A DNA stretch of 64,000 bases from a virus: positions 62,001-126,000 of IMG/VR virus record IMGVR_UViG_3300025111_000052; one strand, given 5' to 3'. Under the pieces are notes generated by a model. The model saw only the letters and a program-made list of their open reading frames with translations. It was not told the DNA's origin and searched no databases. Every line of letters starts with the position of its first letter. Positions within the stretch are counted from its first letter, which is position 1. Shown one piece after another: positions 16,553-63,390 of the stretch. The position numbers and the translations under genes are program-made.

Positions 16553-17323
16553 ATGAATAAAGATGCGCTGGGTGACAGGATGAAATTGTTAGAGCGTTAT
16601 GAGTCAGGCAGACAATTTACTCCTTTACTACCTATATGTGTAAGATTGGATGGTAAATGTTTTAGTACACTTACAAAAGGCCTTAAAAGGCCTTATGATG
16701 AACGTTTAAGTCATTTAATGATAAATGTCACTGGGGCGTTAGTTTCAATGTCAAACGCAATAATAGGTTACACCCAAAGTGATGAAATAAGCCTTATTTT
16801 ATATAGCGATAGTTATAATAAACAAGTTTATTTTGATGGAAAAATACAGAAGATTGTTTCTGTATTGGCTTCAGCGGCATCAGTTATGTTTTCTTCTTAT
16901 CTTAAAGAAGTTATTCCTGAAAAAGGTGAAGATGCTGGTCTATTTGATTGTCGTGCTTGGGTGGTTCCTACTAAAATGGAGGCAGTCAACACACTTGTAT
17001 GGCGTGAATTAGATGCAATTAAAAACAGTGTCTCTATGGCAGCAAGATTCCATTATGCACACAAAGAACTGCACTCTAAAAATAGGGAAGAGATGTTAGA
17101 CATGCTTATGAGAAAAGGTGTAAATTGGAACGATTACCCTACACACTTTAAACGTGGTACTTATGTTAAAAGACAGCTGATTAAAAAGGCTACAAGGTTA
17201 AATGATATATTTGTAAATCGCCACATTGTAGCTGAATATCTTATTCCCCCATTATCAAAACTTTCTAATAAAGAAGAAGTTATTTTTGAAGGGGCAGCAC
17301 CAGCTACATTAGAAGTAGTATAA
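16553..17323 (+). CDS. Thg1-like 3'-5' RNA polymerase / tRNA-His guanylyltransferase family
   Basis: Family enzymes add nucleotides in the reverse (3'-5') direction to the 5' end of tRNA, either G-1 of tRNA-His or repair of truncated 5' ends. The catalytic signature is visible: VRLDGKCFSTLTKGLKRPYD (first metal Asp, about residues 30-49) and GYTQSDEISL (second acidic pair, about 75-84). Length 256 aa matches bacterial or archaeal Thg1-like proteins. Strong AGGAGG upstream. It sits directly after a tRNA gene, within the tRNA region, which supports a tRNA-repair role. Confidence 0.9.
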   Translation: MNKDALGDRMKLLERYESGRQFTPLLPICVRLDGKCFSTLTKGLKRPYDERLSHLMINVTGALVSMSNAIIGYTQSDEISLILYSDSYNKQVYFDGKIQKIVSVLASAASVMFSSYLKEVIPEKGEDAGLFDCRAWVVPTKMEAVNTLVWRELDAIKNSVSMAARFHYAHKELHSKNREEMLDMLMRKGVNWNDYPTHFKRGTYVKRQLIKKATRLNDIFVNRHIVAEYLIPPLSKLSNKEEVIFEGAAPATLEVV

Positions 17324-17343
17324 TTTTGAAAGCGGGGTTAATT

Positions 17344-18291
17344 ATGGAAGTTTATAGAACAAAAGATAACCAGGTGGCTAAATATATACACAACGATGGT
17401 TCAGAGACTGCCATAAAAACTGTAAGTTCTTGTAATAACACAGTAGGTGTAACTACAACAGCTAGAAATAAATACTCCGTGTTTGTTTCTGTATCAGCAG
17501 GGTGTGCAATGCGTTGTGCTTTTTGTTATCTGACAGTGAAAAAGTGTGGTTATACAAAATTATCCGCTAAACAAATAGAGCAGAATGTTAAAGATGCAAT
17601 AGCAGCAGAAGTAGCACACAAACCTGAGCTTAAAGACAAATACATAAAATTTTCATGGATGGGTATGGGTGATGCATTACCATACGGGGATATTGTATAT
17701 CAAGTTTCTATAAATGTACTTAATTGGGTTTTTGCTAACGGTTATGCAAAAGGCTTGGATGGGGTGGATTTATCCACTGTATACCCTAATGTAAAAAATA
17801 TTTATTTTAATAAATTTATAGAATTAAATACAGCCTTAGAATTATATGATATTAATCCAGAACATATTGATGGTAGAAGTCCTTTTAGACTATTTTACTC
17901 ATTACATTCTGCTTTTCAAAAAACACGCAGTGGTTTAATTCCAGGTACTCTACCTATAATAGAAGCTGTATCTGCTTTAAATATTCTTTCTGCGTTAGAA
18001 GGCATTGATGTATTATACCATCAAGTTTTTTTACAGTCATGCAATGACTCCTTGGAAGAGATTAAGGAACTTATTTCTTTTATGGATAGTCCAAGTAATT
18101 ACAACAAAGAATTACGCATCTTACGTTTTAATACTTGTGATGGATCTGCTTTTAAAGAAACAACAAATTTTAATACAATAGTAAAAACACTTTCAGATAA
18201 TATCAGTAAATTAAAATATCAAGTATCCACCGGATCGGAAGTAAAGGCTGCATGCGGACAATTTTTACTTAAAAAGTTTAAAAGTAATTGA
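17344..18291 (+). CDS. RlmN/Cfr-like radical SAM methyltransferase homologue
   Basis: Radical SAM protein of 315 aa with CAMRCAFCY giving the CxxxCxxC Fe-S site, a WMGMGDAL motif, SLHS and a C-terminal AACGQF, the position of the methyl-accepting Cys in RlmN and Cfr. These enzymes methylate A2503 of 23S rRNA and some tRNAs. The residue seven positions before the first cluster Cys, a Cys in RlmN (C118 in E. coli), is Phe here (FVSVSAGC), so chemistry may differ. ATG 17344 is preceded by GCGGGG. Promoter of the next gene overlaps its stop codon. Confidence 0.85.
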   Translation: MEVYRTKDNQVAKYIHNDGSETAIKTVSSCNNTVGVTTTARNKYSVFVSVSAGCAMRCAFCYLTVKKCGYTKLSAKQIEQNVKDAIAAEVAHKPELKDKYIKFSWMGMGDALPYGDIVYQVSINVLNWVFANGYAKGLDGVDLSTVYPNVKNIYFNKFIELNTALELYDINPEHIDGRSPFRLFYSLHSAFQKTRSGLIPGTLPIIEAVSALNILSALEGIDVLYHQVFLQSCNDSLEEIKELISFMDSPSNYNKELRILRFNTCDGSAFKETTNFNTIVKTLSDNISKLKYQVSTGSEVKAACGQFLLKKFKSN

Positions 18292-18316
18292 CAATCTTTA
18301 TTTAATGTCTTATACT
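18288..18316 (+). promoter_or_regulatory. sigma70-type promoter for the cytochrome gene
   Basis: TTGACA (18288-18293) and TATACT (18311-18316), spacer 17. The leader of about 105 bases contains hairpins TACTTAA/TTAAGTA (18318-18337), CCTACGCA/TGTGTAGG (18345-18380) and AGTGA/TCACT near 18393-18407, so expression may be controlled in the leader. Confidence 0.85.
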
Positions 18317-18427
18317 TTACTTAATTACAGTTAAGTATTTTATACCTACGCATAGCAAGCTAACCATTGTTGTGTGTAGGCCTAACACAAACAGTGATTA
18401 AATCACTACAAAACGATGGAGGAATGT

Positions 18428-19270
18428 ATGAATAAATTGTTAAGTATTATAACAATCTTACTCTGTTTTAGTTTTATGGTAGCGGGTACATCTATTGCTA
18501 AGGATGATGAGCATAAACGCGATAGAGAGTCTTACAAACAAGAAAAGAAAGTTAAAGATAAAGAGTGTCCTTCGTGCGAGGAATGTAAAGATAGAGAGTG
18601 TCCTTCGTGCGAGGAATGTAAAGATCAAGTTTGTCCAGAATGTCCAGACCCGGTTTGTCCAGAATGTCCGGACACTGTTACTAAGTTTTTACCGTCACCC
18701 GGCAACGCACATGGAGTAAATCATGGCGAGAGAGTAAAGCGTGAAGGTGTTGGTGTATGCAGAGACTGTCATAATGGGAAGGACTCAGTGGTTGCATTCG
18801 ACAAGTTTATCTGCGCTCAATACGATTTCGTATTTAACGGTAGAAAGGTAGCCGACGGAAATGGGGGTTTTGTTAAAGACCCTATGAGTGGTGATGAAAT
18901 TGTATCTGGGGGCGGGATCGCTGTACTGCTAAAAGGGGATATTATAACATGTAAAATGTGCCACTATCCACATGCCACACCTGGTTTTAGGAAAGAAACA
19001 TACCTTATACATCAGGGCTGCTTGGACTGCCATGTTACAGTGGGCTCAGGTGAGGTAAAAGATGGGGTTGACGGGGACACAGGCACCACCCCTACCCCTA
19101 CCCCTACCCCTACTCCTGGTACAGGTACCGTTGACCCTACTGGTTTTATTATGACTCCGTGGCAAAACTTATGTAGCACCTGTCACAGTAGGAAAACTTG
19201 GAATAGTGGGCTTCATGATACCCATGCAAAACGTAATATTGCTTGTACTAAGTGTCATACATTAAAATAG
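18428..19270 (+). CDS. exported pentahaem c-type cytochrome
   Basis: 280-residue secreted protein: a signal peptide (MNKLLSIITILLCFSFMVAG, cleavage near TSIA-KDD), a Cys-rich repeat region (CPSCEECKD twice, then VCPECPDP twice) encoded by direct DNA repeats (33-base period at 18563-18625, then about 25 bases), and a haem region with five CxxCH sites: CRDCH, CKMCH, CLDCH, CSTCH, CTKCH. A Thr-Pro linker (cctacc repeats, about 19084-19115) separates haems 3 and 4. Additional His residues could be distal ligands. It would act in the periplasm or outside and needs host haem-lyase machinery. ATG 18428 follows GGAGG. It has its own promoter and terminator. Confidence 0.92.
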   Translation: MNKLLSIITILLCFSFMVAGTSIAKDDEHKRDRESYKQEKKVKDKECPSCEECKDRECPSCEECKDQVCPECPDPVCPECPDTVTKFLPSPGNAHGVNHGERVKREGVGVCRDCHNGKDSVVAFDKFICAQYDFVFNGRKVADGNGGFVKDPMSGDEIVSGGGIAVLLKGDIITCKMCHYPHATPGFRKETYLIHQGCLDCHVTVGSGEVKDGVDGDTGTTPTPTPTPTPGTGTVDPTGFIMTPWQNLCSTCHSRKTWNSGLHDTHAKRNIACTKCHTLK

Positions 19271-19290
19271 TATTAGCATAGATTAAAATA

Positions 19291-19336
19291 AATAATAAGA
19301 TGACCGTGGTGGTTAGACTGTGGTCATCTTATTATT
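19291..19336 (+). terminator. intrinsic terminator of the cytochrome cassette
   Basis: A perfect 15-bp stem (AATAATAAGATGACC with its complement at 19322-19336) and a 16-base loop, A/T-rich on both sides, ends the cytochrome transcript before tRNA-Ser. Confidence 0.8.
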
Positions 19337-19345
19337 TATTAAATA

Positions 19346-24183: not shown

Positions 24184-25974
24184 ATGTCTTCAATCAGTAG
24201 CGTATCTAATTTTATATCTGAGTTACTACCTCAAATCAATAATTGGAAATCCGCCACCATTTGGGATAGTTTTAAAACAGAACCCAACTCAGCAAGTGCC
24301 TTTATACAAGACCTGATGAACACAAAATCAGCTCTTGATGTGGCACTTTTGCGTTTTAATGGTGCGGTTAGTGGTAAAGCCGCCGGCCAAGATTTGGACT
24401 ACAATAAATACTTTGAATATCCCAATACCAGATTATTTAAACTCGCTGCAGAAATAACCAAAGGCACTACAACAGATACTGAAAAAATGTATGCTGTTGA
24501 ACAATGGGTAAATAGCAATATTACTTATCAAACTGATGACATGAACTACGGCCCCGATGAGTACTGGGCTTACCCAACAGAGACGCTTTTACATAAGGAC
24601 GGGGATTGTACTGCTAACTATGAGGAAATTTGGACAAAGGATGGCCTCAAAGAAGTAGGCGCTTTACAAGTAGGGGACATAGTTCTATCTTATGACTTTA
24701 ACAAAAAAAGTTATTGTTATAAACCTGTGCTTAAAATATGGGAGAAGGGAAATCTACCTATTTTTAGGGTGAAATTTACTAATGGTACCTGGATAGACGT
24801 GACAGAGGACCACCCTTTCTGGACTAGGCGTGTACAAAAGTATTCTGACTATGAGAAAACTAAGCTATGTGATATAGACCTTAGCAGGTGGTGGAAACGT
24901 AAAATACCTTGTGTTAAAAAACTACCATATGTAATTAAAGACATTGACTGGCTTACCGAAGATTTATGTTTTGTTATAGGGCATTTTTTAGCTGAAGGTG
25001 ATACAGACCGTAGTCACGTTAGAACAAGTGGTTATGATGTACCCACAAGTATAGTACCTATTTTGGATAAATATAACATACCATATAGTATTACTACTAA
25101 TAACAGTGGTGTGCCCTACCTTAATTTTTTGAGCTCAAAGTTGAAGCAGTATTTAAGGCTTTGTAAAGTCAATAGTTTTGATATTAATATACCGGAAGAA
25201 CTATTTTACTTGCCAGCGAATAAACTATATGCTATAATAAATGGACACTTTCTTGGGGATGGTCATTACTCAAAATATGCTGAAAACTCTAACAAAGAAA
25301 AGACCTATTCAACTAGCTCGTACAAGTTAGCTTACGACCTACAGAGACTGCACATGCAGTTGGGCATACCTATTCATATGTGGTTACAAAAAGACCATAA
25401 AGGGGTGGGCAACAAACCCATATGGCGACTTAGTTATAACTCTAATAGCTATTTTGCAAAGGACTACGGGTACGACGGTATAAGCGAAGTGTCCATACAC
25501 AGTGTTAAACCTATGGGCAGCACCAATACTCGTGACTTTATGGTGGCTGATACTCATACGTTCGTAAGTAAGTTTGGTCATATATGCCATAATTGTGAGG
25601 ATATGGCTTTCCTTATAACAAGTTTGGCATTACATTCCGGTGTAGACCCCTCACGTTTAAGAATGTATGGTGGTTTAGTTAAAGCCGGCACAGGGGCTAT
25701 GTCAAGTAGCTCCATAGCGGGACATGGTTGGGGAGCATTCAAACGGGACGATGGTGAATGGGTGCCGATAGAGGGTTCATACTACGCCACTGACTTAGCA
25801 ATAGATGAAAGAGTACCACTTAAAGATAATTACAACTATGTAGAAGATTTCTGGTATGTCACAAAAGATGGTGTGGTAGATGCCACATGGCGTAATTACA
25901 TAAGAAATCCAGATCTGGGTGCTACGATGACTGCAGAACACTACAAAGGTTGGAGTATTAATACAAGGGTGTAA
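24184..25974 (+). CDS. transglutaminase-like cysteine protein interrupted by an intein
   Basis: The precursor is 596 residues; removal of residues 142-470 gives a 267-residue protein. The extein joins HKDGD to CEDMAFL, recreating the GDCED motif of transglutaminase-like cysteine proteases, with later HGWGAF (catalytic His) and WVPIEGSY (third acidic site region). So the Cys that completes splicing is also the enzyme nucleophile. Phage members of this fold are often virion or lysis-associated peptidases or cross-linking enzymes; this is inferred. Confidence 0.88.
   Translation: MSSISSVSNFISELLPQINNWKSATIWDSFKTEPNSASAFIQDLMNTKSALDVALLRFNGAVSGKAAGQDLDYNKYFEYPNTRLFKLAAEITKGTTTDTEKMYAVEQWVNSNITYQTDDMNYGPDEYWAYPTETLLHKDGDCTANYEEIWTKDGLKEVGALQVGDIVLSYDFNKKSYCYKPVLKIWEKGNLPIFRVKFTNGTWIDVTEDHPFWTRRVQKYSDYEKTKLCDIDLSRWWKRKIPCVKKLPYVIKDIDWLTEDLCFVIGHFLAEGDTDRSHVRTSGYDVPTSIVPILDKYNIPYSITTNNSGVPYLNFLSSKLKQYLRLCKVNSFDINIPEELFYLPANKLYAIINGHFLGDGHYSKYAENSNKEKTYSTSSYKLAYDLQRLHMQLGIPIHMWLQKDHKGVGNKPIWRLSYNSNSYFAKDYGYDGISEVSIHSVKPMGSTNTRDFMVADTHTFVSKFGHICHNCEDMAFLITSLALHSGVDPSRLRMYGGLVKAGTGAMSSSSIAGHGWGAFKRDDGEWVPIEGSYYATDLAIDERVPLKDNYNYVEDFWYVTKDGVVDATWRNYIRNPDLGATMTAEHYKGWSINTRV
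24607..25593 (+). mobile_element. intein with LAGLIDADG endonuclease (329 aa)
   Basis: Begins with Cys (CTANYEEIWT) and ends with HN before extein Cys. Block B-like histidine motif (TEDHPFW) and two LAGLIDADG-type helices (FVIGHFLAEGDTD and INGHFLGDGHYSK) are present, so it is a full intein able to home. Same reading frame as the extein throughout. Confidence 0.9.
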
Positions 25975-29440: not shown

Positions 29441-29511
29441 GTCCCGTTGGCAGACAGGCGTTGCGGCGAACTCTAAACTCGCTTAAAGGGGTTCAATTCC
29501 TCTACGGGACA
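29441..29511 (+). tRNA. suppressor-type tRNA (CTA anticodon, reads UAG)
   Basis: Acceptor GTCCCGT/ACGGGAC, D stem GCAG/TTGC with GG in the loop, anticodon stem GCGAA/CTCGC (last pair A-C mismatched) with loop CTCTAAA giving anticodon CTA, T arm AGGGG/CCTCT with loop TTCAATT, discriminator A. CCA not encoded. Every tRNA part is present; the CTA anticodon would decode amber codons. Amino-acid identity is not decided. Confidence 0.82.
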
Positions 29512-34284: not shown

Positions 34285-35859
34285 ATGAAGAAAATTATAG
34301 CTATTAGCGGCACGCATGGTTGTTTTGGTAAAGGCACCTTAGTTAGAATGTATGATGGTACCATAAAACCAGTCGAACTTATAGTAGTTGGTGATGTTTT
34401 AATGGGGGATGACTCTACCCCAAGAAGAGTGTTGGAACTTAAAGACGGTAGGGAAGATCTTTATGAATTTGAATATATTGATGGAATAAAACATATTTAT
34501 AATGCAAGTCACGAGTTAGTATTACAATACTCACAATCTCGTAAAAGTGGGGCTACAAAAAGATCACTAAAAAAGCAACAATTAGGTGATATACGTATAA
34601 TAACAGTAAAAAATTATTTAAAATTAGGTAAACAAAAACAAAGAATTCTTTGTAAGTTTAATGCTGTTATTAAAAGAGCAGTAAGTAGTACCTTAGCAAT
34701 ACCGCCATATATACTGGGTGTTTGGCTTGGTGATGGGCATTCAGCAGGAACAAGATTAACTAATACAGATGAAATTATATTAAATACATTTAAGTGTTTC
34801 GCTGAAAGCAGAAATTTGTTTTTTAAACACGTTGGTAATACTAAGTATACTTATGGAATAACTAATGTTAGAGGTAAAGGGAATAGTTTTTTAGTTGATT
34901 TACAGAAATATAATTTAATTAATAATAAACATATACCCTTAGATTATTTTAATGCAAGTATAGAACAACGTTTATCCATTATAGCCGGTATACTGGATGC
35001 CGATGGACACTTAGATCAACGTAGTAAAGGTAGATATGAAGTAAAATTAAAGTCTAAACAACTAGCCTATGATTTATTTTATATTTCTAGAAGTTGCGGT
35101 ATACACACAACAATAAAAAAAGTAAAATGTGTTTGCACAAATAATGGTAAAGAGGGATATTATTATAGGGTAAATTTAACAAGAGGTATAGATATAATAC
35201 CATGTAAACTTGCACATAAAAAGGCGGTACAGGTAAAAAATCCTCAAAGAACAACATCAAGAGTGGGCATACGTAATGTAACCCCTCTTGGTATTGGCAC
35301 TTATTATGGATTTACTCTTGACGGTAATAATTTATTTCTCCATGCAGATGGTACAGTATTAAAAAACTCTGGAAAAAGCACCATAGCGTATAGTCTTTGT
35401 ACTAAAATGAAGTTGTCTGGTAAAAATGCCATAGTACTTGATGAGTTAGCTCGGAAATGCCCCTTTATTATAAATAAGGGGGCAGGTTCCCATACTCCAA
35501 GATGGTTAACATGTAAACAAATAACTGAGGAATTAGAATTACAAGATAAGGTTGATTTTGTTATTGCTGATAGGTCTGTAATGGACGCTTATTGTTACGA
35601 TCTTACTATACATGGCAGCAATTCTACAATGTCGGCCTATGAAGGTGTAATAAAGGACCATATACTAAATTTATATAAGACTATTTATATACCAAATATG
35701 GATATGTTTAACTTTCAGTTAGCTGATGGTGTACGTGATTTGGACCCTAAATTTAGAAGTGATGTAAATACTAATATACTAAATACATATAATAAACTAA
35801 ATATACCTTATAAAATAATTCATAATATAGATGATATATACAATGACTTGGGGTTATAA
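34285..35859 (+). CDS. P-loop nucleoside/nucleotide kinase-like ATPase interrupted by an intein
   Basis: Precursor 524 aa; removing residues 13-361 gives 175 aa. The extein joins ISGTHG to SGKST, so the intein splits the Walker A motif GTHGSGKST and the enzyme is inactive until splicing. The mature protein has DELARKCPF, a T..Q..E helix and ADRSVMD, the pattern of small AAA_28/NadR-kinase-like proteins, which phosphorylate nucleosides or ribosylnicotinamide. Substrate is not decided; a link with the NAD genes of the right end is only a possibility. Confidence 0.82.
   Translation: MKKIIAISGTHGCFGKGTLVRMYDGTIKPVELIVVGDVLMGDDSTPRRVLELKDGREDLYEFEYIDGIKHIYNASHELVLQYSQSRKSGATKRSLKKQQLGDIRIITVKNYLKLGKQKQRILCKFNAVIKRAVSSTLAIPPYILGVWLGDGHSAGTRLTNTDEIILNTFKCFAESRNLFFKHVGNTKYTYGITNVRGKGNSFLVDLQKYNLINNKHIPLDYFNASIEQRLSIIAGILDADGHLDQRSKGRYEVKLKSKQLAYDLFYISRSCGIHTTIKKVKCVCTNNGKEGYYYRVNLTRGIDIIPCKLAHKKAVQVKNPQRTTSRVGIRNVTPLGIGTYYGFTLDGNNLFLHADGTVLKNSGKSTIAYSLCTKMKLSGKNAIVLDELARKCPFIINKGAGSHTPRWLTCKQITEELELQDKVDFVIADRSVMDAYCYDLTIHGSNSTMSAYEGVIKDHILNLYKTIYIPNMDMFNFQLADGVRDLDPKFRSDVNTNILNTYNKLNIPYKIIHNIDDIYNDLGL
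34321..35367 (+). mobile_element. intein with LAGLIDADG endonuclease (349 aa)
   Basis: Starts CFGKGTLVRMYDG, ends ADGTVLKN before extein Ser. Two LAGLIDADG-type motifs (ILGVWLGDGHSAG and IAGILDADGHLDQ) and block B-like NASHELV are present. Inserted between G12 and the Ser of the P-loop, a favoured intein site. Confidence 0.9.
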
Positions 35860-36988: not shown

Positions 36989-39900
36989 ATGACCCTAAAA
37001 GCAGTATTATTTAGCATCATACTAGTTTTATTAACACAAGCTACTTCTGCTAACGATTTAGTAGTAGGTGTGTTTGAAAATAAACCTATAACTTACTATG
37101 ACGAAGATAAAGCACAAGGCCTGTATGTAGATGTTTTGGATAATATAGCAGCTATGGAGGGTTGGAATATAACTTACAAAAGCTGTAATTTTTCAGAGTG
37201 CTTGGATGAACTAAAAACAGGTAAAATAGACCTATTACCAGCTATTGCAAAAACAGATTCTCTTGAAGAAACTCTTAGTTTCTCATCTATACCTTTATTT
37301 ACTTTTTGGGGTGTTGTTTATACACACACTAACACAAGTATAAATACTTTTACGGAGTTGAATAATAAGCGTGTAGGGGTTATAAAAGACACAGTAATTG
37401 CAAATTCTTTTTACGACTATTGCAATAGTGTTGGTATTAAACCTACTTTGTTATATTACCAAAGTTATGCTGAATTATTTAATAGTATAAGTAGTAATGA
37501 GACCACATTTATTGTGGCCAACAATATCCATGATGCTGCCGCGTTAAAAACATATAATATAAAAAGAACGGGTTTATTTTTTTCTCCCTCCACCGCACTA
37601 TTTGCTACACGTAAAGATCAACATTTAAACATACTATCCACTATTGACAATTATATGAAGGATTGGATAATAGATGAAGGATCACCGTACAGTGTTGCAT
37701 TGCATAAATGGTTTTCAAAACTACCTATACAACAAAAATATCCTAAATACGGTGTAAAAGAAGTAATACCTTACTTAGTGTTGTTTGTGGCAATAGTAGC
37801 CATATTGTTATTGTTTACAACTAAATTTGGTGGTAAACTTAATACAACCGCGTATTCCATAGTATTCTTTATTTGGACCGCACTTATAGCCAGCTCCTTA
37901 GGTTATAACCACACTAGAATACATAATATTATAGAACACACAGCTTTGCTTGAAGCACAAAACATTTTTGAAAAGGATTTATTGCTTAGATCCTGGATTA
38001 CTAACTATGGGGGGCTACCCAACTCTAATATGACAACTCATAAAAAAGAAACACATGCAAATGTGAAAGAGTGTCTTAATGGTAGTACTAGTAATCCTTT
38101 ATTCAATCCCAGCGTCGTAATGAGGTACTCATATACTACGCTAAAAAACTTTGATGAGGCTGGAGTAACATTAGATACCCACAAAGCAGCCAGCTCCGCC
38201 CGCATTCTGGGTTTTAATACAAAAGATCAGCCAGAACTTTGGGAAAACAAATTATTAGAGTCTATAAAAGAAGGTAAAAAAATAGAAAGCTACTATGTGG
38301 ATGATAACACTTTTAGGTATATACACACTATTTACGCAGTGGAGGGCTGTAAAGTATGCCACAAACAATTTAAGGATGGGGAATTAGTAGGCGCACTAAG
38401 TGTAAGCCTTCCAATGGATCATATGCATGACTTGGCAGATTCTAAAATGATAGTAGATTTATATTGCCATGCAGCAGTGTATATAATAGGTTTGTTTGGT
38501 ATTTTTCTTGCGTTACGATCAAATGAATTACGTCAACAAGACTTACAAAAAGCCTCAATACGCCTTATAGAAAATGAGAAAAAATATAAAGATTTGTTTA
38601 TGAACGCACCGTTGGCCTATCAATCCTTAGGCATACACGGTGAATTACTTGATGTTAATAATGCTTGGCTAGAATTATTAGGGTATAAAAAAGAAGAAGT
38701 ACAAAAACGTAATATATTAGATTTTGTTGATAAAAGATATCATACCTATATAAATGAGCAACTACCTAAATTAAAAAAAGTTGGTTATCTTTCTGGTATA
38801 GAATATATTTTAAATAAAGCTGATGGTACTCCAGTCTGGGTTAGTGTCAGTGGTAGGGTTGGTTATGATAACAATGGTAATTTTAAACAAACACATTGTG
38901 TTATTACAGACATATCTGAGCGCAAACAGGCGGAGGAAGAAACCAAGTTACTAAGCCAGCGTAAAGAAATACTTTTAGAACTTAGTCAGATGGAAGAAAG
39001 AGATGAGGCAAGTATATTTGCTTTTGTGGCCGAAAGTATTTCAAAACTTTGTGACAGTTCTATAAGCTATGTTAGTCTGGTTAATAGTGATGAAGATAAA
39101 ATAACCCAAGTAGCGTACAATGGCAAAGCTATGAGTGAATGCTCTAGGTCAGATAAATTAAATGTTACTTATAACTTAGATAAGTGTGGTGTATGGGCAG
39201 ATTGTTTGAGAACAAGAGAAGCCATTTTTATAAATGATTATCCTAATTATATAAATAAACGTGGTTTACCAGAGGGGCATGTGCCTATAACTAATCATAT
39301 GAACGTACCCGTATTTGATGGTAACAATATTGTAGCTATTTTTGGTGTAGGTAATAAAAATCATGGTGACTACAACAATAAAGACGTTGACCACTTGCTC
39401 AGCCTTGCCGATAATGTTTGGCGTATAATACAACGAAAACGTAATATAATAAAAACATTACGATTAGAAAAACAATTACGTGAAGCACAAAAAATGGAGG
39501 CCATAGGCACCTTATCTGGTGGGTTATCACATGATTTTAATAACATACTACAAATTATTTTAGGCTACTCTGATTTAATTATGCTGGAAATAAATAATGA
39601 GAAAACACCAAAAAAAGAGTATATACAAGCAATAGTAGAGGCTGCTAATAAAGGAGCCCGCTTAACAGGGCAGCTCAGATACTTTTCTGAAAAGGAAAGA
39701 AGTTTTAAAGAACCAATTAGCTTAAACAGATCAGTAGAAAGTACGGTAGAGCTTATGAAAAGAACTATACCTAAGATGATAAACATTGACTACTCCTTAG
39801 AAAAAGACCTATACCCTATTATGGCTGATGTTGGACAAATAGAGCAGGTTATAATGAATCTTGCTATAAATGCTGTACATGCTATGCCAGATGGTGGTGA

Positions 39901-40606
39901 TTTAAATATAATAACATGTAATACGCATATAGGTGCTGGGCATACAGAATTTAAAGAAGGCACCTATGTAGTACTTACGGTTAGTGATACTGGGTGTGGT
40001 ATACCACAAGAAAACATAAGCAAGATTTTTAATCCCTTTTTTACTACGAAAAAACAAACGACAGGTGGTTCAGGTTTAGGTTTATATGTGGTTTATGGTA
40101 TTGTAAAAAACCATTCAGGTTATATAACGTGTGATAGCGTAGTTGATCAAGGAACTACCTTTTGTATTTATTTACCGGCGGATAGAACCGCTGTTATCAA
40201 ACCGCCCACAGCGGTAATCACAGTAACAGATTATACTGAGGGCAATGAAACCATACTTGTGGTAGATGATGAAGAGTTTTTAACTGATTTAACTGAAAAT
40301 TACTTGACAACACAAGGCTATAATGTTATATTAGCTAAAAACGGTGAAGAAGCACTGGATATCTATAAGAAAACCTTTAAAATAGATTTAGTTATATTGG
40401 ATCTTAATATGCCTGGTATGGGTGGTATAGCTTGTTTGAAAAAACTATTGGAGTATGATCCTAAAGCCAAGGTAATAATTGCCAGTGGTTACTCAGATGC
40501 AGGACCTATTGGGGAAACAAAAACTATGGGGGCTTTAGGTTATTTAAATAAACCCTTCACATTAACTGATTTAGCGGTATTAATAAGACATGTATTAGAT
40601 AGGTGA
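36989..40606 (+). CDS. hybrid sensor histidine kinase with solute-binding, haem-binding, PAS and GAF modules and receiver
   Basis: 1205 aa. Order: signal/TM start; periplasmic SBP_bac_3-type domain (about 20-245); TM helices about 257-278 and 287-305; a second extracytoplasmic Tll0287/DUF3365-like domain with CKVCH at 454-458 (c-type haem site); TM about 490-510; PAS (about 525-650); GAF (about 665-825); HisKA with His848 in GLSHDFNN; HATPase with N box, DTGCGIP and GGSGLGLYVV; receiver with VVDDEE and phospho-Asp1138 (VILDLNMPG). A complete, apparently functional bacterial signalling protein, very unusual in a phage. GAGGTGG precedes the ATG. Confidence 0.93.
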   Translation: MTLKAVLFSIILVLLTQATSANDLVVGVFENKPITYYDEDKAQGLYVDVLDNIAAMEGWNITYKSCNFSECLDELKTGKIDLLPAIAKTDSLEETLSFSSIPLFTFWGVVYTHTNTSINTFTELNNKRVGVIKDTVIANSFYDYCNSVGIKPTLLYYQSYAELFNSISSNETTFIVANNIHDAAALKTYNIKRTGLFFSPSTALFATRKDQHLNILSTIDNYMKDWIIDEGSPYSVALHKWFSKLPIQQKYPKYGVKEVIPYLVLFVAIVAILLLFTTKFGGKLNTTAYSIVFFIWTALIASSLGYNHTRIHNIIEHTALLEAQNIFEKDLLLRSWITNYGGLPNSNMTTHKKETHANVKECLNGSTSNPLFNPSVVMRYSYTTLKNFDEAGVTLDTHKAASSARILGFNTKDQPELWENKLLESIKEGKKIESYYVDDNTFRYIHTIYAVEGCKVCHKQFKDGELVGALSVSLPMDHMHDLADSKMIVDLYCHAAVYIIGLFGIFLALRSNELRQQDLQKASIRLIENEKKYKDLFMNAPLAYQSLGIHGELLDVNNAWLELLGYKKEEVQKRNILDFVDKRYHTYINEQLPKLKKVGYLSGIEYILNKADGTPVWVSVSGRVGYDNNGNFKQTHCVITDISERKQAEEETKLLSQRKEILLELSQMEERDEASIFAFVAESISKLCDSSISYVSLVNSDEDKITQVAYNGKAMSECSRSDKLNVTYNLDKCGVWADCLRTREAIFINDYPNYINKRGLPEGHVPITNHMNVPVFDGNNIVAIFGVGNKNHGDYNNKDVDHLLSLADNVWRIIQRKRNIIKTLRLEKQLREAQKMEAIGTLSGGLSHDFNNILQIILGYSDLIMLEINNEKTPKKEYIQAIVEAANKGARLTGQLRYFSEKERSFKEPISLNRSVESTVELMKRTIPKMINIDYSLEKDLYPIMADVGQIEQVIMNLAINAVHAMPDGGDLNIITCNTHIGAGHTEFKEGTYVVLTVSDTGCGIPQENISKIFNPFFTTKKQTTGGSGLGLYVVYGIVKNHSGYITCDSVVDQGTTFCIYLPADRTAVIKPPTAVITVTDYTEGNETILVVDDEEFLTDLTENYLTTQGYNVILAKNGEEALDIYKKTFKIDLVILDLNMPGMGGIACLKKLLEYDPKAKVIIASGYSDAGPIGETKTMGALGYLNKPFTLTDLAVLIRHVLDR

Positions 40607-49761: not shown

Positions 49762-50892
49762 ATGGGATTCAGAACATTAGAAGGTGAGTTAGACAACCTC
49801 TTCTTCACTGATTATGAGCTGATAGATAGATTTGTAGGACATACTTTATTTTCTTGGGGTTACAATAACTTTGGGCAAATGGGTGATTCTTCCACTATTT
49901 CTAAATCATCCCCAATTCAGATAGGGGCACTTACTAATTGGAAACAAGTAAGTTCTATTGGTAATGTCTCTGCTGGTATCAAAACTGACGGTACGTTATG
50001 GATGTGGGGCTACAATAATAACGGACAGCTAGGTGATGGAACAATTGCGCCTAAATCATCCCCGATACAGGTAGGTAGTTTAACAGATTGGTTGTCTATA
50101 AAAGTTGGTTCTATAAATGCACTAGCTATAAAAACTGATGGTACCTTATGGTCTTGGGGTGCTAATAGCTACGGTCAGTTGGGCGATGGAACAATTGCCC
50201 CTAAATCATCTCCAATACAAGTAGGCAGTTTAACAGATTGGAAAGATGTAATTACATACGATTCACACGTTTTGGCTATAAAGACCGACGGTACTTTATG
50301 GTCTTGGGGTAGAAATACTTATGGGCAGCTTGGTGATGATACTGTGGTAGGAAAGTCATCTCCTATACAAATTGGAACTTTAACCGATTGGAAAGAGGTT
50401 GCTTGTAGTAGTTTATCTTCCCATGCCATAAAGACCGATGGTACTTTGTGGGCTTGGGGATATGCTTATGTAGGTGTATTAGGAGATGGTACTACTACAC
50501 GTAAATCCTCCCCGGTACAGATAGGAGCACTCACGGATTGGAAAAATCTTTCAGCTGGTTGGTTACACGTTTTAGCCATTAAGACAGATGGCACTCTTTG
50601 GGGATGGGGGTTAAACTACTACGGTCAAATAGGCGACGGTACTATTGTTGATAAATCATCCCCTGTTCAGGTAGGGGGTTTAACTGATTGGAAACAGACC
50701 TCCGCTTGGTCATCCAATTCTTTTGCTACTAAGACCGATGGCACTTTGTGGTCTTGGGGCCCTAATAACTACGGCCAGTTGGGAGATGGCACAATTGTAC
50801 ATAAGTCCTCTCCTATACAAGTAGGCTCATTAACAAATTGGAAACAGGTGGCTGGTGGAGCAACACCTCTTGTTGTTACATACGGAAACTAA
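49762..50892 (+). CDS. RCC1-repeat beta-propeller protein A
   Basis: 376 aa made of about seven 50-residue RCC1-type blades, each reading LWSWGxNxYGQLGDGT, KSSPIQVGxLTDWK and AIKTDGT. This predicts a seven-bladed propeller. An N-terminal 30-residue tag (FRTLEGELDNLFFTDYELID) may attach it to the virion. DNA repeats of about 150 bases run through it. First of three tandem paralogues; likely host-surface binding. Confidence 0.88.
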   Translation: MGFRTLEGELDNLFFTDYELIDRFVGHTLFSWGYNNFGQMGDSSTISKSSPIQIGALTNWKQVSSIGNVSAGIKTDGTLWMWGYNNNGQLGDGTIAPKSSPIQVGSLTDWLSIKVGSINALAIKTDGTLWSWGANSYGQLGDGTIAPKSSPIQVGSLTDWKDVITYDSHVLAIKTDGTLWSWGRNTYGQLGDDTVVGKSSPIQIGTLTDWKEVACSSLSSHAIKTDGTLWAWGYAYVGVLGDGTTTRKSSPVQIGALTDWKNLSAGWLHVLAIKTDGTLWGWGLNYYGQIGDGTIVDKSSPVQVGGLTDWKQTSAWSSNSFATKTDGTLWSWGPNNYGQLGDGTIVHKSSPIQVGSLTNWKQVAGGATPLVVTYGN

Positions 50893-50905
50893 ATGGAGGA
50901 TATAA

Positions 50906-51538
50906 ATGAAAGTATTAGTATCTAATAATAAAGTGATATTAGGGCCTACCTGGTGGAACCAGAATATGTTTCAATCTGTTTTAACAGATGAGCTAGGTTT
51001 AAATTTTACACTTCCAACTATTACGGAAGATTCAGCAGCATACTCAGTTAGTGATACTGTAAAGATACTTCCTGTTGAATTTACTGCTGTAAATTATGAC
51101 CACAGGATTCAGCAACTAGCCGGGCCTAATTGGACGATACAAGCGGATAAGGCTATCGCCAGCTACACCGTTGTAGATAGACCTATTGAAGCTGTACGTA
51201 ATGAACTTAAAGCAAAAGTGGCTAATCTTCGTTGGCAGAAAGAGGTTAGCGGTACAAAAATCACACTTCAAGACCAAGAAATAGGAGTTGCAACTGATAG
51301 GGAGACACGCAATATGTACTCACAGGCATTACTACTTGGTGTTGCTGGTGTTAATTGGAAGTTTGGTAATACATGGCTTGTATTATCTCTTGCAGATCTA
51401 CAAGTTCTGGTATCTGCTGTATTAGCACATATACAAGCGCAATTTGAATGGGAATCTGGCATAGTTACATCAATAAATAACGCGGTTGATTTAAATACTC
51501 TTACTGCAATAGATGATTCTCTTGATGTACTACTATAA
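50906..51538 (+). CDS. DUF4376-domain tail protein, 210 aa
   Basis: C-terminal half has RWQKEVSGTK and a helical segment seen in DUF4376 proteins, which are linked with phage tail fibres or fibre assembly. N-terminal half is beta-rich. Located between RCC1 proteins A and B. GGAGG upstream. Confidence 0.8.
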   Translation: MKVLVSNNKVILGPTWWNQNMFQSVLTDELGLNFTLPTITEDSAAYSVSDTVKILPVEFTAVNYDHRIQQLAGPNWTIQADKAIASYTVVDRPIEAVRNELKAKVANLRWQKEVSGTKITLQDQEIGVATDRETRNMYSQALLLGVAGVNWKFGNTWLVLSLADLQVLVSAVLAHIQAQFEWESGIVTSINNAVDLNTLTAIDDSLDVLL

Positions 51539-51553
51539 TACCGAGGTGTAAAG

Positions 51554-52732
51554 ATGACAATAACGACCAACTATAAAAGAGCAGATGGTTCTGACTGCGG
51601 TAACTTTGTCACAAAAGATTATTTGTTACGTGTTTACCCACAATTAGTACCGTCCTCAAAAAGGGCTAGTATATGGACTTGGGGACAAAATGCTAGTGGG
51701 CAATTAGGTGACAGTACTTTAATTGGTAAATCTTCACCAATACAACTCGGTTCCTTGGTAGATTGGAAAAACATTGCTGGTGGGTGGCAGCAAATGATAG
51801 CCACTAAGAATGACAACACTTTGTGGACTTGGGGCAACAATGTATACGGACAGTTGGGTGATGGTACAACCACAAGATCCATATCTCCGCAACAAATTGG
51901 GGCTCTTACGGATTGGGCAAGTGTTGCTTCTGGGCATATTTTTATGTTAGCTTTAAAAACTGATGGCACCATATGGTCTATCGGCGGATCTAATACTGTC
52001 GGACAACTTGCAGATGGTACAACTATTTCTAAATCATCCCCAATTCAGATAGGGGCGCTTACTAATTGGATATCGATAGCCAGTGGGGGTGGGCATGGCG
52101 CAGCTATAAATTCGAGCGGCGCACTCTGGATGTGGGGAAGTAATACAGACGGCCAGTTAGCGGATGGGACTTTGGATAGTAAATCCTCTCCAATTCAGGT
52201 AGGGAGTTTAACTGATTGGAAGCAAGTTTCTTGTGGCCAATTATATACCCTTGCTTTAAAATTGGATGGTACCTTATGGTCCTGGGGCTATAATAATGGT
52301 GGCCAACTTGGAGATGCTACTAGTGTGGGTAAATCATCACCGGTACAGATAGGCTCCTCGACCGACTGGGCTAGCTGTGAGGCGGGGCAATATCATGCAG
52401 CAGCCATAAAAACCGATGGTACCTTGTGGACTTGGGGTGCTAATAACTACGGACAGCTGGGTTTGGGTTCTGTGCTTACAGCAAACTACTCTTCACCAGT
52501 ACAAGTAGGCTCCCTTAGTAATTGGAAAAAAGTATCTTGTGGATATAGTTATACCACAGCTTTAAAAACGGACGGCACTATTTGGACTTGGGGCTTTAAT
52601 ACCGATGGGCAACTTGGGGACAACACAAATGTACATAAGTCATCTCCAATCCAAGTCGGGGGTCTAAATAATTGGAAAAACATTTTCGGATGTAATACCA
52701 GCGTAATAGCTATAACAGATTTAAATTATTAG
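51554..52732 (+). CDS. RCC1-repeat beta-propeller protein B
   Basis: 392 aa, about seven RCC1 blades with the same repeat signature as protein A. The tract 52022-52070 is identical to 49894-49942 in gene A but for one base, pointing to recent recombination. Short N-terminal attachment tag differs from A and C. Likely adhesin. Confidence 0.88.
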   Translation: MTITTNYKRADGSDCGNFVTKDYLLRVYPQLVPSSKRASIWTWGQNASGQLGDSTLIGKSSPIQLGSLVDWKNIAGGWQQMIATKNDNTLWTWGNNVYGQLGDGTTTRSISPQQIGALTDWASVASGHIFMLALKTDGTIWSIGGSNTVGQLADGTTISKSSPIQIGALTNWISIASGGGHGAAINSSGALWMWGSNTDGQLADGTLDSKSSPIQVGSLTDWKQVSCGQLYTLALKLDGTLWSWGYNNGGQLGDATSVGKSSPVQIGSSTDWASCEAGQYHAAAIKTDGTLWTWGANNYGQLGLGSVLTANYSSPVQVGSLSNWKKVSCGYSYTTALKTDGTIWTWGFNTDGQLGDNTNVHKSSPIQVGGLNNWKNIFGCNTSVIAITDLNY

Positions 52733-52740
52733 GAGATAAA

Positions 52741-53886
52741 ATGTCAAATCCAACAGGCTATAAATTTACTTATAATGATCAGGTAGTAGATTTTAATGAC
52801 TTGTTCACCCGGAGAGATTTATTTGACTTTGGTAATTTATTTACATCCGGTGATAACGAATTCGGCGCCATAGGCGATAGCACACAAGTACACAAATCAT
52901 CTCCAATTCAAGTGGGTGGTTTTAATAATTGGAAACTAATTGCAGGCGGTTACAGACAATTTTCTGCAATTAAAGCTGATGGTACCTTGTGGTCATGGGG
53001 TAGAAACCATTACGGTCAATTAGGGGATAGCACTTTGGTAGATAAATCATCCCCAATACAAGTAGGAAATCTTACTGATTGGCATACACTGGCTAGCGGG
53101 CGTGTCCATCTAGCGGCTATAAAAGAAGATAACTCACTATGGGCTTGGGGTTATAATGGTTATGGCCAACTTGGTAACAATAGCATAGTTAATACATCAT
53201 CTCCAATACAAGTAGGATCTCTCACTAATTGGCAGCATATTTCCTGTGGTACATACCATACTGCGGCCCTTAAAACAGATGGAACTATTTGGACTTGGGG
53301 TTTTAATGATAGCGGTCAATTAGGTGATGGGACGGTTGTGTCTAAATCATCCCCAATTCAAGTTGGCTCTGACACAGATTGGGCATTGATAAATTGTGGG
53401 TACTACGCTACCATGGCAATTAAAAATGATGGTTCCCTTTGGCTATGGGGTGATAACGCCTTAGGACAGCTTGGAGATGGTACAACAACACCAACAAGTT
53501 CACCTGTGCAACTTGGGTCACTTACTGATTGGAAATCGGTATTGGGTGGTTTCAATTTTACGGTTGCAATTAAAACTGATGGTAGCTTGTGGTCTTGGGG
53601 ACGAAATCTTCGTGGTAATTTAGGTATCGGTACTTTTGAGGATAAATCATCTCCTATACAAGTGGGCGCTATGACAGACTGGAAAACGGTGGCCTTAGGT
53701 TATAGCCATGTATTAGCAATTAGAACTGATGGTACACTATGGGGCTGGGGTTATAATACGACTGGAACACTAGCTTTGGGTGACATAGTAGATAAGCCTA
53801 CTCCCACCCAAATTAGTTCTAGAACAAACTGGAAGAGCATAGGTTGTGCTAACTTCACATCAGGTTTTATTACATATGCAAATTAA
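52741..53886 (+). CDS. RCC1-repeat beta-propeller protein C
   Basis: 381 aa with about seven RCC1 blades and an N-terminal tag (YNDQVVDFNDLFTRRDLFDF). Third tandem copy, last gene before the converging terminator. Likely surface-binding, variant of A and B. Confidence 0.88.
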   Translation: MSNPTGYKFTYNDQVVDFNDLFTRRDLFDFGNLFTSGDNEFGAIGDSTQVHKSSPIQVGGFNNWKLIAGGYRQFSAIKADGTLWSWGRNHYGQLGDSTLVDKSSPIQVGNLTDWHTLASGRVHLAAIKEDNSLWAWGYNGYGQLGNNSIVNTSSPIQVGSLTNWQHISCGTYHTAALKTDGTIWTWGFNDSGQLGDGTVVSKSSPIQVGSDTDWALINCGYYATMAIKNDGSLWLWGDNALGQLGDGTTTPTSSPVQLGSLTDWKSVLGGFNFTVAIKTDGSLWSWGRNLRGNLGIGTFEDKSSPIQVGAMTDWKTVALGYSHVLAIRTDGTLWGWGYNTTGTLALGDIVDKPTPTQISSRTNWKSIGCANFTSGFITYAN

Positions 53887-60657: not shown

Positions 60658-61488
60658 TTACATTATTCCCAAAATCTTATTTCGTGTAAGATTTATTGGG
60701 TTATTCCTTTTGTAATGCGTATTTTTGTAGCGAAGCACAACCGGACTATCATCCTCTTCCACACCATCTGTGATGTATTTGAGTAGGACGTTGTCGATGT
60801 CTGTGTAGCGACGAAGGCCGAGTTGATCGAAATCACTGTCGGTTACACCCAGACCATCAGTCGGTACCGCTGTTATACACGCGTTAAGTGCTTCTGCTTT
60901 ATCCACGGCGTCGTTCATGGCATACTTTTTACAGAGCCAAGCCGCCAGCCCGTACACTTCAGTTTTCCACAGATTCTGTATCATGCCATAGTCGCCAACA
61001 TCACCATGCATTGTCCAAAAGCCAAGCAGCAGCTCCGTATAATTATCTGTTGACAAAACAAGACCGTTATTAAGATGGGCCAAATCATACAGTAGTATCA
61101 TGCGAGTTCTTGCTTTTACATTACCACGGCGAATCCTCTCTGCTTTTGTAGTGATATCATGCCTGGCCGGATTTGATATGGATTTATACAGATTATTGTA
61201 GACATCATCCAAGGATACTGTCTCAAAGTCATCACAAAAGCATTTACCAATGGCGGAAGCGCGTGCTATTTCATCCGGTTTATTTGTTACAATAGGCATA
61301 CTTCTGCCTATAAGGGTAATACCCGTCTCGTCACAAATAACGCGTGCCAAGGCAGCCACTAAGGCACTATCTATACCACCTGAAATACCAATCACCAAAG
61401 ATTCCAGACGGCTCCTTCGCACGTACTCCATACCCTCGGCCAAAATGTTGTTATACATTTTATTGTACTCTGCACTAATACTAAGCAT
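60658..61488 (-). CDS. nadE: NAD+ synthetase, ammonia-dependent
   Basis: Makes NAD+ from nicotinate adenine dinucleotide. The N-type ATP pyrophosphatase loop SGGIDS (36-41) is present, followed by STDNYTELLLGFWTMHGD, and the C-terminal VTDSDFDQLGL. 276 aa, without a glutaminase domain. Start overlaps the end of nadD by 8 bases, so coupled translation is likely. Confidence 0.94.
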   Translation of the reverse strand: MLSISAEYNKMYNNILAEGMEYVRRSRLESLVIGISGGIDSALVAALARVICDETGITLIGRSMPIVTNKPDEIARASAIGKCFCDDFETVSLDDVYNNLYKSISNPARHDITTKAERIRRGNVKARTRMILLYDLAHLNNGLVLSTDNYTELLLGFWTMHGDVGDYGMIQNLWKTEVYGLAAWLCKKYAMNDAVDKAEALNACITAVPTDGLGVTDSDFDQLGLRRYTDIDNVLLKYITDGVEEDDSPVVLRYKNTHYKRNNPINLTRNKILGIM

Positions 61489-62089
61489 TTATTTTCAAAG
61501 CCCCCTTATAAAGGTTATTATCTTTAATATATTGCATTACAGATTGTGTCACATTGTATGATATACCCTCTCTGGCAATTTCCTTACGTACCTCAGTAGA
61601 AGACACGTTGCCTATGCCGGAGGTACATTTAACAAATTTATGTTTTCCGATAGTATACCAACTGCCCTCTACATACGGGCTACCTGGACGCTCCATAACT
61701 ACAAATGAGTACTGACTTATCAAACGTTCCCACTCATGCCAAGTTTCAATCTCTGCGGCTTGATCTGTTCCGATACAAAAGAAAAAATCCGCATCGATAT
61801 ATGAGGCCAAGCGATCTAAAACAACAACTGTTGGTTCTATCAACTTGTTGGCTATCTCGTAGGAACAAACATTTATACGTTTATCAGAAATGTCATTACA
61901 TGTTAACTTTAACATGTTTAAACGGTGATTGGCGTCCTGCATATTTTTATCATTCCAGGAATGATAGCTCGGCAAGAACCATATCTTATCAAAATTTGCT
62001 ACCCCGAGCATCATCTTTGCTACCAATATATGTCCTAATGTTACAGGATCAAATGCCCCACCAAATAAGGCTACTTGTTTTCTAGCCAT
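61481..62089 (-). CDS. nadD: nicotinate/nicotinamide mononucleotide adenylyltransferase
   Basis: Converts NaMN and ATP to NaAD. Class motifs: FGGAFDPVTLGH (9-20, HxGH-type ATP site) and ISSTEVR-like SSTEVRKEI near residue 170. 202 aa, usual size. AAGGAG upstream; overlaps the end of pncB by 19 bases. Confidence 0.94.
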   Translation of the reverse strand: MARKQVALFGGAFDPVTLGHILVAKMMLGVANFDKIWFLPSYHSWNDKNMQDANHRLNMLKLTCNDISDKRINVCSYEIANKLIEPTVVVLDRLASYIDADFFFCIGTDQAAEIETWHEWERLISQYSFVVMERPGSPYVEGSWYTIGKHKFVKCTSGIGNVSSTEVRKEIAREGISYNVTQSVMQYIKDNNLYKGALKINA

Positions 62090-63390
62090 TCTTTGTACTC
62101 CTTTTCTTTTCGGCTTACAATGTAGCTTATGTATTCCTCATACTCTTTACTCTCGCACATCCCTTTTCCAGGAGAGTCACTCACTTTTGCTACCGGGCCG
62201 TGGTTAAACTCAACGAGTTTAATTACAATTTGTAATGCTTCGACATCTGTATCATTTGTAAGGTTGGTGCCAATAGCAATGGCTACATTTATTTTGTTGT
62301 AAAAAGTGGCGTAAAGATTGAGGGCTTTATCCACATCTAAGCCGTCACTAAAAACAGCAGTCTTACTCTTTGCGTCAATATTCCGCTTATTATAAAGCTG
62401 CAACAATTTGTCACACCAAATATAAGGGTTACCGCTGTCATGGCGAACCCCAGAGTATTGATCAGCAAAGTGCCTAAAATCGGATAGGAAGGCTTCAAAG
62501 CCAAATATATCACTTAAAGCAATTAATAATTTATCCCCATACTCCTCTCGCCAAGCAGTCAGCAAGTCTATCTGGCTATCATAGGCAGAAGTAATTTGTT
62601 GATACATTTGAAACATTTGATGTGCCATAGTACCGATCATAGGCAAACCATATTTCATGGCCAAATAACAGTTAGAGGTACCTTTTAAAACATCAGGTAT
62701 TTCCTTGTGAAGTGTGGCCACTACCTTCTCATGCCAATCAAATGCAGCCCTCCTTCTTGTTCCAAAATCAATGATATTGAAACCGGGTAGATTGGTTTTA
62801 CGTATCTTCTCTATTTTAGCGAGCAACTTTTTCCTAGCCACATTTAAACTATTTGCATGTCTCTCACTATTTTTTATTGTAAATAAATACGCTGGTTTAA
62901 AGTTGGCTTGATTGTCAATATATTTGTCCAGTGTGATATCATAAAAACGATAATACAGCTCGCTATTTAAAGCAAGCACCGGTGTTTCATACCAGATTAC
63001 CTGTTCTATTGGGCCTTCTATCTCAATATATAAAGCACCACCTACAAGTGTAGCTTTTATATGAGATCTATCCAAAGTAAGTGTTCTAAGAAAATCTAAG
63101 AAGTACTCTTTAAATTTTCCTGTCCCCCGTAAAAATCGAATTTCCGTTTCATTAAATCGTAATTTACAGAAAGAGTCTATTTGACTATTCATCATTGCTA
63201 CGAATGAGTGTTTTTGATCATAACTAATGTCAGCAGGAAAACCGTTACCATTACGGCATTTGTATTTATATTTAGCAATGGTACCTTTAAATCTGCTTAG
63301 TATGAATTGGCACATATAAAATGTATACGCGTCATTATCCAATAAACTGTTTATTAATGGTCTCATGTGAAAGTCTGCCGTTGATTTCAT
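62071..63390 (-). CDS. pncB: nicotinate phosphoribosyltransferase
   Basis: Forms nicotinate mononucleotide from nicotinate and PRPP. N-terminal SLLDNDAYTFYMCQF, GTSNCYLAMKYGLPMIGTMAH and YSGVRHDSGNP match PncB. 439 aa. ATG 63390 is preceded by GGGAG. First NAD-pathway gene of a strictly ordered pncB-nadD-nadE set; overlaps the radical SAM gene upstream by 4 bases. Confidence 0.93.
   Translation of the reverse strand: MKSTADFHMRPLINSLLDNDAYTFYMCQFILSRFKGTIAKYKYKCRNGNGFPADISYDQKHSFVAMMNSQIDSFCKLRFNETEIRFLRGTGKFKEYFLDFLRTLTLDRSHIKATLVGGALYIEIEGPIEQVIWYETPVLALNSELYYRFYDITLDKYIDNQANFKPAYLFTIKNSERHANSLNVARKKLLAKIEKIRKTNLPGFNIIDFGTRRRAAFDWHEKVVATLHKEIPDVLKGTSNCYLAMKYGLPMIGTMAHQMFQMYQQITSAYDSQIDLLTAWREEYGDKLLIALSDIFGFEAFLSDFRHFADQYSGVRHDSGNPYIWCDKLLQLYNKRNIDAKSKTAVFSDGLDVDKALNLYATFYNKINVAIAIGTNLTNDTDVEALQIVIKLVEFNHGPVAKVSDSPGKGMCESKEYEEYISYIVSRKEKEYKEWLENK

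Follow-up and report, generated by a model that had tools for sequence, protein, structure and literature searches.

A predicted secreted pentahaem c-type cytochrome is encoded by a tailed phage in the 64,000-nucleotide stretch of DNA analysed here (hereafter the window), which corresponds to bases 62001-126000 of a 152,034-base IMG/VR virus record (labelled G000). Metal-respiring bacteria use electron-carrying proteins of this kind. Related phages keep the gene intact, with purifying selection acting on it, and, judged from the gene content of its carriers, it is a host-metabolism-type gene on a verified phage genome. On balance, and with modest confidence, we consider that its product would be a periplasmic electron carrier, matured by the host, which keeps respiration going during infection; the gene would then count among the auxiliary metabolic genes that act on host respiration.

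Cytochrome gene and predicted product

The positions of the features are given in Table 1. The five CxxCH sites reported by an earlier reading of these letters without database searches (hereafter the sequence-only reading) were confirmed, starting at residues 111, 175, 198, 249 and 273. When the protein was shuffled with its composition kept (n = 200,000), the maximum was three CxxCH sites, which was reached in four shuffles, and the remaining open reading frames of the G000 record have at most one CxxCH each. The ATG assigned by the open-reading-frame tool (18416) was corrected to the likely start codon, the ATG at 18428, which follows the GGAGG sequence. Outside the CxxCH sites, six histidines are present in the haem part (95, 99, 182, 195, 263 and 266), enough to provide the sixth ligands for five haems, and this count of candidate ligands would fit all-bis-His electron-transfer haems. 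In the alignment, all six, together with all five CxxCH sites, are kept in the homologues L012 (contig G005) and L052 (contig G009). Export is plausible, since a signal peptide could be read at the N-terminus, as the sequence-only reading had proposed, and the homologues of G009 and G010 also begin with one.

Table 1. Features of the cytochrome locus and the hybrid kinase gene (positions in the window)
Feature	Position	Strand	Remarks
Sigma-70-type promoter, TTGACA-17-TATACT	18288..18316	+	-35 element shares bases with the stop codon of the RlmN/Cfr-like gene upstream
Untranslated leader, about 105 nt	18323..18427	+	14-bp hairpin at 18345-18380; ribosome-binding site GGAGG at 18419-18423; from sequence and fold
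Gene for secreted pentahaem c-type cytochrome	18428..19270	+	280 aa, stop codon TAG; product predicted from sequence
Signal peptide, residues 1-24, without lipobox	18428..18499	+	Read from sequence: MNKLLSIITILLCFSFMVAGTSIA, followed by KDD
Cys-rich repeat tether, residues 46-82	18563..18673	+	CPSCEEC and CPECPDPV units, no His; from sequence
Module A, three haem sites (residues 111, 175 and 198)	18686..19051	+	Doubled-CxxCH type; PF09699 match and alignment
Pro-Thr repeat linker joining modules A and B	19082..19126	+	Near-identical phage contigs differ in repeat number (280 versus 282 aa)
Module B, two haem sites (residues 249 and 273)	19145..19267	+	His 263 and 266; likeness to cellular octahaem-type C-terminal modules
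24-pair hairpin 3' of the cytochrome gene	19287..19340	+	Terminator-like; loop GGTTAGAC kept; z -9.05
Hybrid histidine kinase	36989..40606	+	One CxxCH in a Tll0287-like periplasmic sensor domain (27.3 bits, cut-off 24.1)

The haem part passed the cut-offs of Paired_CXXCH_1 (PF09699; 23.1 bits versus 20.6) and Cytochrome_C7 (PF14522; 27.3 versus 24.8), and the full-length protein scored 18.0 with the latter, under the cut-off. Given four sequences for the haem part, AlphaFold reached a pLDDT of 35 and no usable fold, and the sequence searches of the PDB with the window protein and with a four-row profile gave chance-level matches only. At 0.434, the GC content of the gene exceeds the phage mean of 0.366 but is not extreme, 7 of the 134 genes being higher. 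The location between an RlmN-like gene and tRNA-Ser agrees with the sequence-only reading: the tRNA-Ser follows the terminal hairpin, and upstream lie a gene for a Thg1-like tRNA-His guanylyltransferase (16553-17323) and then the RlmN/Cfr-like radical SAM gene (17326-18291). A tRNA with a CTA anticodon, called tRNA-Pyl, was also noticed at 29441-29511. General amber recoding was rejected despite this tRNA; TAG ends 21 of the 134 genes, the cytochrome gene included.

Modular layout and cellular relatives

The haem sites are laid out as 3+2, with a gap of 60 residues from haem 1 to haem 2, and a trihaem c7/PpcA domain of about 70 residues is absent from the window protein. The invariant residues of module A in the family alignment are His 95, 99, 182 and 195 and the lone Cys129. 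The Cys-rich repeat segment without His in front of the haem domain had been correctly described in the sequence-only reading, which suggested that it may tether the protein or bind another metal. Its number of Cys is 10, 7, 4 and 4 across four relatives (from the alignments and the G010 sequence) and its length varies too; such variation points to a variable tether rather than a metal site.

A pattern scan of 84,980 species genomes with the haem part gave no relative. When profiles were run against 141 and 395 genomes (the order and the phylum, respectively, to which a Geobacteraceae MAG belongs), only large cytochromes matched, and those in part. The best were cellular proteins with 12-15 haems; the one tested has an octahaem core of the tetrathionate-reductase family (TIGR04315, E 7e-69, under the curated cut-off; PDB 1sp3, E 4e-44). 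The C-terminal two-haem modules of cellular octahaem-type cytochromes are 39-46% identical to module B (51-58% for the G009 copy). In sequence, module B resembles the C-terminal two-haem tail of octahaem cytochromes of Desulfobacterota-type bacteria and, as it aligns with these tails, was probably taken from such a cytochrome. Note that the octahaem catalytic core (TIGR04315 family) is absent from the window protein and that only the C-terminal two-haem extension is shared.

Transcription signals

The consensus promoter seen in the sequence-only reading is present, and both hexamers are invariant in L012, where the spacer is 16 bases, but it is not private to the gene. Promoter-like sites with at least 11 of 12 matches number 30 in G000 (about 10 in shuffles) and 41 in G005 (about 11 in shuffles); several are near the cytochrome gene, and many are at corresponding positions before genes in G000 and G005. 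Since the same type recurs across the genome, it is a common phage promoter. The G000 record also has an 1138-aa gene (L007:3269-6685; 48% identical in G010) whose product combines Rpb2 domain 6 and Rpb1 domain 2 of RNA polymerase in a single chain and is probably a phage-encoded single-chain RNA polymerase. With this gene present, the sigma-70-like promoters may mark the genes read by the host polymerase.

As for the structured leader, the length given in the sequence-only reading holds, but its fold (z -2.9 in the window) is not conserved, z being -0.1 in L012; a conserved leader RNA was thus rejected. The terminator, described there as having 15 bp, is a hairpin of 24 pairs, and its fold is kept in L012 (z -5.7) by compensating changes with a different stem sequence; it was not called by the terminator scan because it has no clean U-tract. 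Regarding the own promoter and terminator expected of a moron, therefore, the promoter is conserved but of the common type of this phage, and the hairpin is conserved without a clean U-tract. The moron-like cassette proposed in the sequence-only reading agrees with the patchy presence and variable location of the gene (see below), but its expression apart from the phage programme is not supported, the promoter type recurring genome-wide.

Phage carriers, selection and distribution

Besides G000, five IMG/VR contigs carry the window cytochrome, of which four are near-identical throughout the overlap and the fifth is G005 (234 kb), which shares about 111 kb of synteny with G000 (77-90% DNA identity) and has the genes for the terminase large subunit, portal and major head protein. 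The cytochromes of G000 and G005 are 94% identical in amino acids (dN about 0.030, dS about 0.40, dN/dS about 0.075), and the indels between them are confined to the Cys-rich tether and the Pro-Thr linker, with the haem sites and candidate ligands unchanged. The gene is intact in the related phages, where the sequence-only reading had named decay as an observation that would speak against it. The search with the major head protein gave 75 clade contigs in IMG/VR, the deposited phages (Bacillus phage G and Tunturi_5) being only 22-24% identical; by this sequence comparison, G000 belongs to a jumbo-phage clade that is uncultured as far as the collections searched go. The INPHARED phages searched with the window cytochrome gave no match.

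Other genes noticed in the window include an NAD salvage run (60658-63390: NAD synthase, NadD-like nucleotidyltransferase and nicotinate/nicotinamide phosphoribosyltransferase), intein-like insertions with homing-endonuclease domains at 24184-25974 and 34285-35859 (in transglutaminase-like and AAA/kinase-like proteins), and three neighbouring RCC1-repeat genes (49762-53886), which likely encode repeat-built fibre or adhesin-like proteins.

The IMG/VR scan with the pattern CxxCHxPH-15 aa-CxxCH gave six stretches, all of the window-cytochrome family, including L052 of G009 (52-kb contig), which has five haem sites and is 70% identical to the window cytochrome over the haem part. The wider scan was performed with the TGT codon only, so that its 97 stretches (80 listed) are a lower bound; among the 80 of the 97 was L096 of G010 (228 kb), a trihaem homologue consisting of module A only, 41% identical to the window cytochrome and scoring 23.1 bits with PF09699. 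The IMG/VR loci L077 and L103, with a four-haem doubled-CxxCH protein on contigs that may be phage or host DNA, were left out of the phage set, and the PF09699 match in the 238-kb relative G046 was rejected as an HNH-like protein with a single CxxCH. Counted together, the homologues come from four phage lineages. The median protein identity is 43% for G009 and G010 versus G000, and 70% for G009 versus G010. The pentahaem proteins of G000 and G009 are thus more alike than the rest of their genomes, which suggests that they have been either exchanged or strongly constrained. A small FN3/Ig-like gene adjoins the cytochrome gene in both G009 and G010, and DUF1353 and lipoprotein genes are near; a caspase-like peptidase gene (PF00656; L052:5981-6862) also adjoins that of G009.

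The family profile gave no match in 39 further clade contigs, which are fragments but include contigs of 238, 189, 150 and 144 kb. As no cytochrome was seen in most other sizeable clade contigs, the clade does not need it, and the patchy distribution with varied local context is an accessory (moron-like) pattern. Multihaem cytochrome genes on tailed phages are very rare in IMG/VR, in line with the sequence-only reading, in which such a gene was called very unusual.

Independent trihaem pair in a distant phage

Two tandem trihaem genes were found in G011 (163 kb), an only distantly related phage that has a terminase gene (E 3e-51). They lie at L174:5490-6660 (G011 125490-126660), directly upstream of a GH108 endolysin gene, and a second contig, G012, is identical to G011 across this region. 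Against solved structures, the first trihaem protein matched cytochrome c7 (1ehj, E 2e-9) and PpcA (E 3e-5), and it scored 58.5 bits with NF043011, under the cut-off of 120. PpcA is a periplasmic electron shuttle of Geobacter. By sequence, the G011 genes are an independent parallel of c7/PpcA-like type.

Possible function

The sequences show the gene, its motifs and export signal, the ligand histidines, the selection and the phage origin; haem attachment, cellular location, partners, benefit and host are what we infer from these data, as follows. The cytochrome would be a soluble protein that Sec moves into the periplasm of the infected cell, or further out, and the host's own machinery would attach the five haems; the cytochrome-assembly protein PF01578 was not found in the phages searched, so maturation must be the host's. 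The mature protein would consist of module A and module B joined by the flexible linker, with the variable Cys-rich arm in front, and may pass electrons from one redox partner of the host to another, as a carrier or wire. In an anaerobic, probably metal- or oxyanion-respiring host, electron flow and proton-motive force would thereby be kept up while the phage replicates.

The hybrid histidine kinase (1205 aa) has solute-binding, CxxCH Tll0287-like, PAS, GAF, kinase and receiver domains and is 69% identical in G005. The genome scan gave its best cellular matches in MAGs of Geobacteraceae and Deltaproteobacteria, at 36-37% across the kinase half. Known examples of periplasmic c-haem sensor domains are those of the Geobacter chemoreceptors GSU0582 and GSU0935 (PMC3460858). 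The kinase is a possible functional companion of the cytochrome, though not a required one, and is a second sign of the phage dealing with the periplasmic redox state; yet G010 has the cytochrome, and the kinase is absent from it.

Among the alternatives, an assembly artefact or host contamination, in which a bacterial cytochrome gene was joined to a phage contig, is extremely improbable. The GC content of the gene exceeds the phage mean, and metagenome assemblies can be chimaeric, but the gene keeps its position in the four other near-identical contigs and also in G005, which is syntenic but diverged, and homologues occur in G009 and G010 with none close in the species genomes scanned; a chimaeric contig was in practice rejected by the conserved synteny in independent contigs. 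The export and the accessory, patchy occurrence of the cytochrome would also be expected if it served superinfection exclusion as a receptor decoy, i.e., a secreted mimic occupying a host surface cytochrome complex that is the phage receptor and thus blocking further infection. The variable Cys-rich and Pro-Thr arms would be suited to docking, the likeness of module B to the tail of host-type cytochromes is as expected of a mimic, and the G009 and G010 cytochromes lie among lipoprotein and DUF1353 genes. A surface or envelope role would also fit the neighbourhood in G009, G010 and G011, where other genes for secreted proteins, lipoproteins or lysis are close to the cytochromes. A decoy, however, has no need to retain all five haem sites and every candidate ligand while its haem part diverges by 30%, and the G011 genes encode plain small c7 proteins without such arms; we regard this explanation as unlikely.

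Handling of haem, metal or oxidants, with the protein buffering haem or scavenging peroxide or other reactive species at infection or lysis and having no respiratory role, appears quite unlikely to us. Multihaem proteins can show peroxidase-like side activities, the lone Cys129, which is invariant, could have redox activity, as could the Cys-rich arm, and the G011 pair adjoins an endolysin gene, whereas no catalytic domain was recognised in the cytochrome and the number of candidate His ligands fits electron-transfer haems that are all bis-His. It is very unlikely that the cytochrome serves redox or haem sensing by handing electrons or a ligand signal to the hybrid kinase, by which the host would be reprogrammed: the two co-occur in G000, G005 and the near-identical contigs, and the Tll0287-like domain with CxxCH is above the Pfam cut-off, but G010 has the cytochrome without such a kinase, and the kinases of G028 and G029, both of which are without the cytochrome, are homologous only outside the haem domain. 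The electron-carrier reading is therefore preferred.

Relation to known systems and implications

The members of the cytochrome c7/PpcA family (Desulfuromonas c7 and Geobacter PpcA-E; PDB 1ehj and 1os6) are likewise small secreted bis-His multihaem electron carriers, whereas the window protein has five haem sites, two modules and long arms, with no three-haem c7 domain as such. In the octahaem tetrathionate-reductase family (TIGR04315; PDB 1sp3 represents the core), the C-terminal two-haem extension shares the CxxCH and His spacing with module B, and one cellular octahaem-type copy has Pro-Thr-rich linkers between repeats as in the phage protein; the phage protein, in contrast, is without the catalytic core.

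Plastocyanin and ferredoxin of cyanophages are phage auxiliary electron-transfer genes. Phage auxiliary genes for electron transfer or tetrapyrroles, e.g., viral AlaS (PMC11480375), likewise support host redox metabolism in infection. None of these, however, is a secreted multihaem c-type cytochrome. A multihaem cytochrome was also claimed for a microvirus (PMC10190252), but that evidence, an I-TASSER template match with the CxxCH motif unmentioned in the text, is not comparable. The nearest mobile-element precedent in the literature searched is the Borg elements, whose multihaem cytochromes were proposed to augment host electron transfer (PMC9605863). Borgs are alike in being mobile elements of an anaerobe that carry multihaem cytochromes; they differ in being archaeal extrachromosomal elements of methane-oxidising archaea, not shown to be phages, whereas the window type is carried by tailed phages, in which genes for terminase, portal and head are present, and its proteins are small. 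The literature searched yielded no tailed phage reported to encode a multihaem cytochrome with CxxCH motifs, a weak negative because few subscription-journal papers or bioRxiv preprints were covered.

The three- and five-haem versions in relatives, together with two more genes in the distantly related G011, suggest that some phages plug into the respiratory wiring of their hosts. We propose, as a tentative generalisation that may well prove too broad, that certain jumbo phages infecting anaerobic bacteria rich in cytochromes bring electron conduits of their own (the secreted three-/five-haem family and, independently, PpcA-like trihaem pairs), one lineage with a haem redox-sensor kinase, to keep or redirect respiration, including extracellular respiration. 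Together, the gene family, in both its trihaem and pentahaem forms, and the independent c7-type case offer a well-defined set that can be tested. Should the cytochrome really carry electrons during infection, phages would have a direct hand in anaerobic and extracellular respiration, the driver of bioelectrochemical systems and of the cycling of iron, manganese and sulphur.
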